DNA from: Liolophura sinensis
Taxonomy: Eukaryota; Mollusca; Polyplacophora; Chitonida; Chitonidae
Assembly (NCBI RefSeq): GCF_032854445.1
Contig: NC_088295.1
Span: 59,873,249-59,937,248 of the forward strand
Direction: 5' to 3'
DNA: 64,000 nucleotides
Shown: positions 14,701-17,435 of the stretch, piece after piece
Layout of the letters: every line of letters starts with the position of its first letter
Position numbering within the stretch: the stretch's first letter is position 1
The notes under the pieces: generated by a model
What the model was told of the DNA's origin: nothing
Seen by the model: only the letters and a program-made list of their open reading frames with translations
The model's database searches: none
Position numbers and translations under genes: made by a program

Positions 14701-17435
14701 CAAATATTTTCTAAGCAATAACATGATTTTTCTCCAGATTAAGAGTTTACTGAAGCTGTCAATTAGCCTAAATTTAACTGGGGCCAGGATATAAAAAATT
14801 ACCCCTAAATGGATTTAAAAAAGACATAACCTTTATCCTGGACATTCCAAATAAGTTTACGAAGATTGAAATCTGTCTTAAAGCTAGGTCTTCAACTAGC
14901 TTATGCTGCTTTAATTTGCCATTAGCCATCAAGCTTCTGGTGGGTAACCTCAAGGGAGGTATTTCAGTGCGGCCCTGTTTCTCAAACCATCAAATCAGAA
15001 AACATTTTCTTTTTCGTTTTTGGACGTTACAATTCTCATGTTAAAGGCCATAACTGAGCCATTTACTCATGAATTCATTCTGAAGTTCCCTGGGGTCCTG
15101 GAGGCCTGGGTAGAGAAGTTACCTGAAGGCCTGGGTAGAGAAGTTACTTGGAGGCCTGGGTAGAGAAGTTACCTGGAGACCTGGGTAGAGAAGTTACCTG
15201 GAGGCCTGGGTTAGGAAGTTACCTGGAGGCCTGGGTAGAAAAGTTAACTGGAAGTCTGGTTAAAGAAGTTACCTGGAGACCTGGGTAGAGAAGTCCGCTT
15301 AGTAAAGGGTGGTCCACTTGTTTGACCACTTCAGCTCCAGCCTTACGAGCATCGTGCTCCGTAACCAGGGATGACAGCTTATACACATCCAGCATGTATT
15401 CTCTGAATACACAAAATTTGCAATAACACTGTAGTAAAAGATTTCTCTACATATGGAGTAGATTATTCTGTGAATCAATTTGTAATCAGGAATAAGACTG
15501 TGAGATGAAAAAAAAATGTGCTGCATCACTTGATCCCTAAGTGTGCCCCTTTATTTATTTATCTGATTGGAGTTTTATGCCATACCCAAGAATGTTTCAC
15601 TTATATAACGAGTCAGCATTATGGTGGAAGGAAACCTGGCAGAGACCAGGGGAAATCCACAACCATCCGCAGGTTGCTGAAGTCTTTCCGTGTACAACCC
15701 GTAATATAAAAGAAAACTCTACCAAGAAACTGATGGAGTATCCACACTCAAGGTTAGCAAGTTCAATGTGTGTGTCTGTCATTCATGCAAGACCACATAA
15801 GGCCCTAATGGAATGAAACCGGAAAATCTACACATTCATTTTGTTTCGTCTCATTTTTATGATTTTCCCACTGCTCAGGGCTTTCCTATCAATGTATATA
15901 TCATTAACATGAAAAATTGCAGGAAAATTCCACATTATCCACAAACTGGATGATTTTTTCAGTCTACCTTAATTCCACAGCCTTTTCGCATATGAAAGAG
16001 CAACTTTCAGTGCAAGTTACTGACTTTTACATTTTGGAGATAGATGTACATTGGTTGAATTAGATCTTATCATACTACAATTTATTTGTTCATTTATTCG
16101 ATTGGTGTTCACGCCGTACTCAAGAATATTTCACTTATATAACGTCAGCCAGCATTATGGTGGGAGGAAACCGGGCAGACTCCGGCGGAAACCCATGACC
16201 ATCTGGTGGTTGCTGGCACATCTTCCCACGTACGGCCGGAGAGGAAGCCAGCATGAGCTGGAATCAGACTACAAGGAATAATCCCTTCAGAATATGTTTC
16301 AATAAACACCTAGCAAATATGCTTAACGGCTGAAGAATTACAATATATCTTTCCCCAACTGAAAAAAAGATTCATTACACCTGTGAAACAAAATATGAAA
16401 ATAGTGATGAACAGTTCACCTGCTAAGCTGGTAATCTGTGCCCTTCACAAACTTGAGTTTGTCCAGTGGCACCCCTATACTCCTGAGCATGGCTTTGATG
16501 ATATGCTCGTAGTACATGACTCTCTTCTCTAGTAACTCCCAGGGGGCTTTCATATTGTCCAGGTAAGCGTGCAGGTCAGCAAACAGAATTGTTACCTGAA
16601 AATTACATTTATACCAGAATGAACATGTAATTTTTAAGGATACAAAAAAGGGTTTTTATTTTATAAAGTTAAGTCTTCTGATAACACCAAAACTCCAAAT
16701 TCCCATACTACTTACTTCACATCCGGCTGACAGAAAGTCTGCTATTTTGGACATAGGGACAAAGTAAGCCACATGGGGTTTGCCTGTAGTTGCTGTCCCC
16801 CAGTAAACCTTCAAATCACGTTCCTTCAATACTGCTCTCACTTTGTCCTCTCCGATAACTTCCTACAACATACATCATAAGGCCATAATTAAAAATATGT
16901 TTGTTGGACATGATAAACATCACGTTTTTCAACTATACGATAGTGGTTATTTTTCTATGGATCAAGGACTTGGGTGGAAGACAAAGTAATCTTCAGCTAA
17001 GTTAAGAACATGCAAAGGGACCCACAGCGCTTCTGACAAATTGTTGTTAACAAGTCCTAAAACTGGATGAGAGAGACACTGCAGAAGGATTGAATCTTTT
17101 TTTTTCTAAATTTCTTGACTTTTCTCAACAATACATCATCTGTTTTTTAACTAATTTCTTTTCTCTTCTAAATGACTAGAGTTAAATCCCACCAGCAATT
17201 AACAACCCACCTAAAAAATGTCACTTCCACGATGTTCACAAAGTAGAAATGTATCCATGCTTATCTTGGACTTTCTTTCAGATTGTTTACACCCTACTTA
17301 TTTCACACATTAAAATTTTGGATACACCTAACTTAAACAAGTATCAGTGTGAGAGAACAATACCTGCAGATTTCTGTTTATCAGGGCTAACTTCTCATCT
17401 GTGCTCATCTCAGATGGATCCTTCGCTTCAGCCAT
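8672..17435 (-). CDS. YARS1: Cytoplasmic tyrosine--tRNA ligase (TyrRS), 13 coding exons, 532 aa
   Basis: It charges tRNA-Tyr with tyrosine in the cytosol (EC 6.1.1.1). Coding exons, 5' to 3' on the - strand: 17435-17364, 16862-16716, 16595-16420, 15402-15273, 14345-14265, 13967-13916, 13667-13485, 13051-12966, 12742-12610, 11980-11889, 10545-10349, 9301-9163, 8782-8672. All junctions are GT-AG and keep frame; 532 aa against 528 in human. Class I signatures: [13 protein letters not shown] (residues 45-57, HIGH equivalent) and KMSSS (227-231). A KKKLKK nuclear-localisation-like motif is at 247-252. The EMAP II-like tRNA-binding domain runs from about 370 ([25 protein letters not shown]) to the end. 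The human cytokine tripeptide ELR is EKR here (96-98). The start ATG has a good context (ACCATCATGG). Exons 4 and 12 have tandem copies of their 3' ends in the next intron. Confidence 0.97.
8940..9230. repeat. Decayed 70-76-bp tandem copies of the YARS1 exon 12 end and donor
   Basis: The exon 12 3' end and its donor (forward strand CATACCTGTAAT at 9159) recur at about 9091, 9020 and 8944. The nearest copy still reads CAG|GTATGA on the - strand; the two farther ones are progressively degraded. Confidence 0.85.
9163..9301 (-). CDS. YARS1: YARS1 exon 12
   Basis: Acceptor GAATTCAG at 9302. The internal CTCAG closer to [14 protein letters not shown] would break the frame; with this acceptor the CAS to VEP spacing equals that in human. 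Ends KKKIWEKLQ before CAG|GTATGG. Confidence 0.93.
9737..9843. mobile_element. MITE-like foldback element M1 (short copy)
   Basis: Ends are TACCCTAATTCCTCAACC and, inverted, GGTTGAAGAATTACAGTA, giving about 25-bp terminal inverted repeats. It lies in YARS1 intron 11. Confidence 0.75.
10349..10545 (-). CDS. YARS1: YARS1 exon 11
   Basis: Encodes [20 protein letters not shown] through [19 protein letters not shown] to CAST. Donor GA|GTATGA leaves a split codon completed by T of exon 12. Confidence 0.95.
10583..10730 (-). repeat. Diverged SINE-A fragment
   Basis: Keeps ATTTATTTATTT, CTCAAGAATTTTTCACTTA and CGGAGTGCCTGGGAAAAACC. No recognisable head. Upstream of exon 11 in YARS1 intron 10. Confidence 0.7.
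11889..11980 (-). CDS. YARS1: YARS1 exon 10
   Basis: Encodes a G/K/E-rich linker and [15 protein letters not shown], the first strand of the EMAP II-like domain. Acceptor TTTTTAG. Confidence 0.95.
12329..12574 (-). repeat. SINE-A, near full length
   Basis: Contains CTCAAGAATATTTCACTTAT, CAGCATTATGGTGGGAGG, GAACTCACAGCGACC and the terminal CTAGCAAGCTAACCAAC. Located in YARS1 intron 9. Confidence 0.9.
12610..12742 (-). CDS. YARS1: YARS1 exon 9
   Basis: Encodes [20 protein letters not shown] then [14 protein letters not shown], the end of the anticodon-binding region and the linker. Donor A|GTATGT. Confidence 0.95.
12966..13051 (-). CDS. YARS1: YARS1 exon 8
   Basis: 28 codons after a split Asp: [20 protein letters not shown] then LEQAFAKE. 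The acceptor is preceded by a long T-rich tract. Confidence 0.93.
13485..13667 (-). CDS. YARS1: YARS1 exon 7 (KMSSS)
   Basis: Encodes [20 protein letters not shown], the KKKLKK basic motif and [14 protein letters not shown]. It contains the class I KMSKS-type loop. Confidence 0.96.
13916..13967 (-). CDS. YARS1: YARS1 exon 6
   Basis: Short exon of 52 nt encoding [17 protein letters not shown]; donor G|GTAAG splits the next Val codon. Confidence 0.96.
14265..14345 (-). CDS. YARS1: YARS1 exon 5
   Basis: 27 codons, [20 protein letters not shown] then IFTFAEK, nearly identical to the vertebrate protein. Confidence 0.97.
15098..15295. repeat. 25-bp tandem array spanning the YARS1 exon 4 splice donor
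   Basis: About eight 25-bp units (core CTGGGTAGAGAAGTTACCTG) run from the last bases of exon 4 into the intron. On the - strand most units repeat TCTCTACCCAG then CTCCAG|GTAACT, so donor-like and acceptor-like words are both multiplied. Confidence 0.93.
15273..15402 (-). CDS. YARS1: YARS1 exon 4
   Basis: Encodes [20 protein letters not shown] and [20 protein letters not shown], ending LQ. The most upstream CAG|GTAACT donor fits the family alignment; the following intron carries a 25-bp array copied from this exon-intron junction. Confidence 0.93.
15549..15692 (-). repeat. SINE-A, head-truncated
   Basis: The 3' domain (CCAAGAATGTTTCACTTAT, CAGCATTATGGTGGAAGG) and the CATCCGCAGGTTGCTGAAG centre are present; the tRNA-like part is absent. 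YARS1 intron 3. Confidence 0.85.
15965..16350. mobile_element. MITE-like element M1 split by a SINE-A insertion
   Basis: Left part (TACCTTAATTCCACAGCC, CGCATATGAAAGAGCAAC, up to ACTACAA at 16079) and right part (ACTACAAGGAATAATCCC to CTGAAGAATTACAATA) together make one M1 copy. ACTACAA occurs on both sides of the inserted SINE, consistent with a target-site duplication. Confidence 0.8.
16080..16271 (-). repeat. SINE-A nested in M1
   Basis: CTCAAGAATATTTCACTTAT, AGCATTATGGTGGGAGGAAA and GGAAGCCAGCATGAGCTGGA are visible; truncated before box A. Confidence 0.9.
16420..16595 (-). CDS. YARS1: YARS1 exon 3
   Basis: Encodes [20 protein letters not shown] through GTDYQLSR. It contains the E-K-R that replaces the human E-L-R. 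Donor AG|GTGAAC with a split Arg codon. Confidence 0.96.
16716..16862 (-). CDS. YARS1: YARS1 exon 2
   Basis: 49 codons holding the HIGH-like nucleotide-binding motif (TGKPHVAYF) and [13 protein letters not shown]. Acceptor TTGTAG, donor GAA|GTAAGT. Confidence 0.96.
17364..17435 (-). CDS. YARS1: YARS1 coding exon 1
   Basis: Starts ATG at 17435-17433; 24 codons ([20 protein letters not shown] then RNLQ). Donor CAG|GTATTG. The exon extends 5' as UTR to the acceptor at 17446. Confidence 0.93.

Follow-up and report, generated by a model that had tools for sequence, protein, structure and literature searches.

A 25-bp tandem array across the exon 4 splice donor of YARS1 resembles the mirages of amphioxus

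Mirages are minisatellite-like duplications of exon/intron boundaries in which many units carry AG/GT splice signals. They are known from amphioxus, where the genes involved are Adh3 and the globins BflGb6 and BflGb9 (PMC3087553), to which PGBD5 and troponin C were later added (PMC3902484). The mirage units measure 10-72 bp in Adh3 and 150-160 bp in BflGb6 (PMC3087553). In both sources, RT-PCR data are said to suggest that mirages do not interfere with regular splicing (PMC3087553, PMC3902484). The YARS1 array described here was found in a 64-kb window, the whole stretch of DNA that was analyzed. As in the amphioxus mirages, it is composed of minisatellite-like tandem copies of a boundary, the AG/GT signals are kept, and the unit lengths are of the same order. 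The array possesses three structural features of a mirage: a minisatellite-like repeat, a unit that spans the boundary, and AG/GT in several of the units. In contrast to the mirages as described for amphioxus, which involve both sides of boundaries and other genes, only donor-side cases were found here, three in 64 kb.

Other described systems resemble the YARS1 array in part. The intron gain in potato RdRp likewise arose by duplication across a boundary, with the signals of that boundary being used again; however, it consists of one tandem duplication that produced a new intron, on the acceptor side and with no minisatellite (PMC4974935). Human variable internal tandem repeats, some of which are located at exon-intron boundaries, contain about 4 copies of about 30 bp and alter exon/intron structure. 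These repeats lie in segmental duplications and half of them are in coding sequence, whereas YARS1 exon 4 keeps one copy (PMC2812944). Tandem duplication has also been given as a partial explanation of intron positions in Drosophila (PMC2891723). A donor-spanning minisatellite in another invertebrate was not found in the literature searched (titles and the starts of abstracts, among the matches listed). Introns have reportedly been born from tandem arrays (the Rogers model; Zhuo et al. 2007), and both ends of such a new intron are said to lie within copies. These introns share with the YARS1 array the tandem copies holding AG/GT, but intron 4 has only its donor side in the array. Its ordinary acceptor is outside the array, and a new-intron origin of intron 4 was rejected on this ground.

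The YARS1 open reading frame comprises 533 codons including the stop, distributed over 13 coding exons, and encodes a protein of 532 residues. The spliced model matches human cytosolic tyrosyl-tRNA synthetase (TyrRS; 1n3l, E 6.5e-175), the C-terminal part of the model matches 1ntg (E 1.8e-61), and the Pfam domains tRNA-synt_1b and tRNA_bind are both present. The exon borders of our gene models are hand-placed, guided by similarity to human proteins and by GT/AG. The coordinates that the original prediction had given for exon 4 fit this model (Table 1), with the acceptor TTCAG/AGAATAC and the donor CTCCAG/GTAACT both present. A family-alignment check did not move the predicted exon end elsewhere: human TyrRS aligns without a gap across the exon 4/5 junction, which supports an end at the unit-1 donor, since a later donor would put inserted sequence there.

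Tandem Repeats Finder (TRF) describes the array with a period of 25, 7.9 copies, 86% matches and a score of 310. Identity at a lag of 25 bases reaches at least 0.855 from a single start among all 198-bp stretches of the window. Unit 1 (15270-15294) is ACTTCTCTACCCAGGTCTCCAG/GTA, consisting of 22 nt of exon 4 and 3 intron bases. Several units keep AG/GT splice signals, with five exact occurrences of CAGGTAACT in the array, and likewise five exact occurrences of TCTCTACCCAG. An exact CAG/GTAACT is present in units 1, 3, 4, 5 and 7 only. Unit 2 is CAGTTAACT, in which the GT is lost, unit 6 is CAAGTAACT, and unit 8 breaks off as CAGGACCCC without a donor. Unit 5 is identical to the exonic unit 1 at 25 of 25 bases; the largest difference of any unit from unit 1 is 6 of 25 bases, and each of units 1-7 deviates from their shared consensus at between 1 and 5 of 25 positions. 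The codons that have been copied spell LLYPGLQ, which is common to human TyrRS, and the exon is therefore the source from which the intron copies derive. The CT at positions +5 and +6 of the real exon 4 donor belongs to the first copy of exon sequence. From the unit-1 donor it is 50 nt to the next live donor, that of unit 3. The gene, the exon, the array of about eight units and the run of near-identical donors into the intron had all been predicted and are borne out by TRF and the gene model. The prediction that every unit repeats CAG/GTAACT is correct for five units, but does not apply to units 2, 6 (CAA/GTAACT) and 8.

Table 1. Coordinates within the window of YARS1 and of the donor-spanning tandem arrays
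Feature	Position	Strand	Basis
YARS1 gene, coding exons 1-13	8672..17435	-	spliced gene model, human TyrRS alignment, Pfam
YARS1 exon 4, 130 nt, end ...SGLLYPGLQ	15273..15402	-	gene model and human TyrRS alignment
YARS1 exon 5, start ALDEEYLKV, phase 0, acceptor outside array	14265..14345	-	gene model
25-bp tandem array, 7.9 units; units 2-8 wholly within intron 4	15097..15294	-	TRF, unit alignment
Unit-1 donor CAG/GTAACT, probably the one used	15267..15275	-	only donor giving intact protein
Units 2 and 3 of 25-bp array: unit 2 donor broken (CAG/TTAACT), unit 3 donor exactly as in unit 1	15220..15269	-	
Units 4, 5 and 7, donor exactly as in unit 1; unit 6 CAA/GTAACT	15120..15219	-	
Second array, 70 bp x 2.3, unit 1 is 3' end of YARS1 exon 12 (9163-9301)	9042..9202	-	TRF, sequence, boundary scan
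Third array, 170 bp x 2.7, unit 1 includes the final ~109 nt of exon 7 of the AGPAT-like gene (30443-30641)	30533..30991	+	TRF, boundary scan

Donors were scored with a matrix built from 18 array-free donors of three genes. CAG/GTAACT scores 6.3 in units 1, 3, 4, 5 and 7, and the scores of units 6, 2 and 8 are 4.6, 0.8 and -7.9. For the U1 duplex, an energy of -8.0 kcal/mol was computed for each of the five identical donors; units 6 and 2 come to -1.6 and -1.3, and unit 8, in which GT is absent, to -4.5. Among the 52 GTs of intron 4, the identical donors rank highest; an unrelated GT at 14802 reaches 6.2. A score of at least 6.3 is attained by about 4% of the GT dinucleotides in the window, which makes the exon 4 donor a middling one, and it is among the 4 of 21 donors without +5G. 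Strength cannot single out unit 1, since units 3, 4, 5 and 7 carry the identical 9-mer. Only the unit-1 donor yields the intact 532-residue protein when joined to exon 5. The same joining produces a stop after residue 208 with unit 2, after residue 193 with unit 3 and after residue 192 with units 4 to 8. A wrong donor choice had been expected to shift the frame, and for most units it does. The exceptions are the positions at +75 and +150, which stay in frame yet run into a TAA formed by the repeated GTAA, and the harm in all seven alternatives is a premature stop.

We propose that the 25-bp array is a mirage, a DNA-level duplication of the exon 4 boundary that would be rendered harmless by use of the outermost donor under exon definition, and we assign this reading a probability of about 0.8. 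Slippage or unequal exchange would have tandemly duplicated the final 22 nt of exon 4 plus the GTA of the donor, and more rounds would have resulted in about eight copies, every one of them on the intron side. Because the duplication crosses the donor, exon 4 is unchanged if the outermost (unit-1) donor is used, and the other copies are plain intron. Copying would have rewritten +5 and +6 to CT, a copy of exon sequence, which would account for a real donor without +5G. The selector is most likely cross-exon proximity, with an exon of 130 nt between introns of 1017 and 927 nt, and exon definition would favor the donor nearest to the acceptor of exon 4 itself. Donor slips would lead to premature stops and probably to nonsense-mediated decay. 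Such arrays may survive because a donor-crossing duplication leaves one exon copy in place.

The use of an outermost donor among identical ones has an experimental parallel. When minigenes contained two identical CAG/guaagu donors, separated by 52 nt, and introns of 365 nt, only the upstream donor was used (PMC9225289). The long-long intron class of that source is defined by introns of >250 nt, and the flanking introns at all three array exons of the window exceed this length (1047/380 and 1215/1569 nt for the other two). The agreement is weak (P = 0.27), since 12 of the 18 internal exons here already have two long introns. Other results in the same source count against our proposal: under intron definition, with short introns, the downstream donor is preferred, about 60% of all its human events favor the downstream donor, and weakening of both donors led to skipping of most of the larger exons tested (PMC9225289).

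The second donor-spanning array is found at the end of YARS1 exon 12, AAATTACAG/GTATGG, with the donor ACAG/GTATGG. Its second unit is 70% alike and contains ATTACAG/GTATGA, and its third has decayed to ATGA/GTATGG. Use of an alternative donor of this array results in 520 residues at +70 and in 542 at +141 (in frame, with a stop in the intron), compared with the normal 532. The third array belongs to an AGPAT-like gene with the Pfam domains Acyltransferase and Acyltransf_C. Its 170-bp unit joins the last ~109 nt of exon 7, ending in GTAGCTGTAG/GTGAGT (donor GTAG/GTGAGT), to 61 intron bases. Copies 1 and 2 are 98.2% identical, the second donor is identical to the first, the third is GTAG/GTGATT, and both alternative donors lead to a stop after residue 354/385. 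The donors at the 70-bp and 170-bp arrays are strong, with scores of 8.6 and 9.4. The same AGPAT-like intron also contains a 39-bp array (31392-32134; 19 copies, 96% matches), the end of which is 76 bases before the last exon.

The boundary scan covered 42 boundaries in the YARS1, AGPAT-like and CEP57-like genes and sought a copy within the neighboring 400 bases, a range that misses wider-spaced copies and at short introns reaches beyond the next exon. It is not certain where the first AGPAT-like exon and the CEP57-like exon at 1882 begin, and the acceptors of both were left out of the counts. A boundary copy was found at three donors only (scores 62, 54 and 95, each reached by 0 of 200 shuffles). 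Nearby tandem copies are therefore present at 3 of 21 donors, in two of the three genes, and at 0 of 21 acceptors within the same 400-base scan. For the exon 5 acceptor (14345), no nearby copy is better than chance, with 141 of 200 shuffles as good. The difference between three donors and no acceptors is drawn from a sample too small to claim a donor-side bias.

The window is rich in minisatellites. From 32 TRF rows, 20 arrays were picked by hand, and these cover 7.2% of the window. Six rows with units of <10 bases were dropped (starts 37731, 41834, 49316, 49397, 52663 and 62662), and overlapping or touching rows were merged (2744 into 2490, 4409 with 4439, 24383 into 24373, 25082 with 25083, and three near 38.7 kb). 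When the array mask was rotated over all offsets, the three arrays seen at donors compared with 1.5 expected (P = 0.19), none at acceptors with 1.5 expected (P = 0.17), and three at all boundaries with 3.04 expected (P = 0.57). Since arrays at boundaries are not significantly commoner than under random placement, no active targeting of boundaries is implied: the 25-bp array itself exceeds chance, but its coincidence with a boundary does not. Exon bases inside the three arrays number 171 of 3255.

Further features were observed in the window. A short interspersed element is present in many copies (5342-5591, 8138-8419, 12315-12569, 16071-16264, 15545-15700, 21147-21365 and others). The 13 copies that were aligned start with TTTATT runs and GATTGGTGTTTTACGCC, their pairwise pieces are ~68-90% alike, and the consensus is one that we take to be known from mollusc sequences. 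Scans of a prokaryote collection for the repeat gave no hit, and the literature searched by text for its sequence yielded only one paper, an unrelated one. Rfam gave no matches at gathering scores. The 3' end of the CEP57-like gene (1882-3900, plus strand; Pfam Cep57_MT_bd, E 2.5e-19) contains an intronic array with a unit of 98 bp (2490-2814), and an array with a unit of 33 bp (903-1364) precedes the first of its exons that was found. At 59458-60387, 22 copies of a 42-bp unit form an array that has long open stretches in three frames, two on the minus strand and one on the plus strand. An open frame of 236 codons on the plus strand (43302-44012) encodes 223 amino acids from its first ATG and has no Pfam match at E 0.01.

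Several other explanations of the 25-bp array have to be weighed. It is conceivable, though unlikely, that donor choice is leaky, such that a sizeable share of transcripts uses units 3-7 and is lost to nonsense-mediated decay, with array length tuning YARS1 output. The five donors of identical score and duplex energy at the top of intron 4 would fit this, although the site at 14802 scores almost as high, and so would the premature stop that follows from every alternative donor. YARS1 is however a housekeeping gene, and a load of failed transcripts should be costly. The RT-PCR reportedly showing undisturbed regular splicing of mirage genes also argues against leaky choice (PMC3087553, PMC3902484). 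A functional role for the array as a cluster of U1 sites, aiding recognition of a donor without +5G, seems improbable. The absence of +5G, shared with only three of the other donors, and the retention of the same 9-mer in four of the six full downstream units are consistent with such a role, but the units do not conserve the nine donor positions significantly better than the other positions (changes at 2 of 63, compared with 11 of 112; P = 0.14), the nearest extra unit, unit 2, is dead, and the other two arrays are found at strong donors.

Scarless self-splicing within the array is another scenario that we regard as having little likelihood. A mistaken donor choice could be repaired by splicing once more, now joining the unit-1 donor to one of the later CAG/GT sites, which would restore the same exon end in the manner of ratchet or recursive splicing and would be a step toward intron growth. 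A TAAC branch-like site upstream of units 2 to 8, a pyrimidine content of 71-76% at -20 to -4, a CAG (CAA in unit 6) at the boundary from unit 2 on, mostly directly before GT, and distances of 25-175 nt from unit 1 to the later units are all compatible with it. The branch-like match is nevertheless to a four-base motif only, and units 2 and 8 have no GT at the boundary. Using an acceptor matrix made from the 21 acceptors of the three gene models, with real acceptors scored leave-one-out, CTCCAG/GT scores at most 3.0, below 17 of the 21 real acceptors. The CCCAG that the original prediction had called acceptor-like is poor by the same matrix, its best score being 2.1. An assembly artefact is very improbable. 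Short arrays are prone to mis-assembly, and an aberrantly assembled mirage was noted in a draft genome (PMC3087553), but the divergence of the units from unit 1 and the same arrangement in three arrays of different period speak against an artefact. The mirage with a harmless outermost donor remains the reading that we prefer.

The YARS1 array is real, and is an ordinary example of a known though little-known type, with a useful density of cases. We suggest tentatively, and with less than even confidence, that donor-spanning minisatellites are common in this genome, outside the cephalochordates in which mirages were named. They would constitute a natural experiment on competition among as many as five identical donors, with the outcome decided by position only, and they would persist only at exon-definition exons. 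Mirages gain a wider range if their host here is not a cephalochordate. With arrays of identical donors, the choice of the first of equal sites becomes testable in a natural gene, where strength is constant and position varies. At three cases per 64 kb, a genome-wide collection seems feasible, which could then be examined in relation to the lengths of exons and introns. Donor-spanning arrays may also be raw material for intron growth and for new splice patterns.
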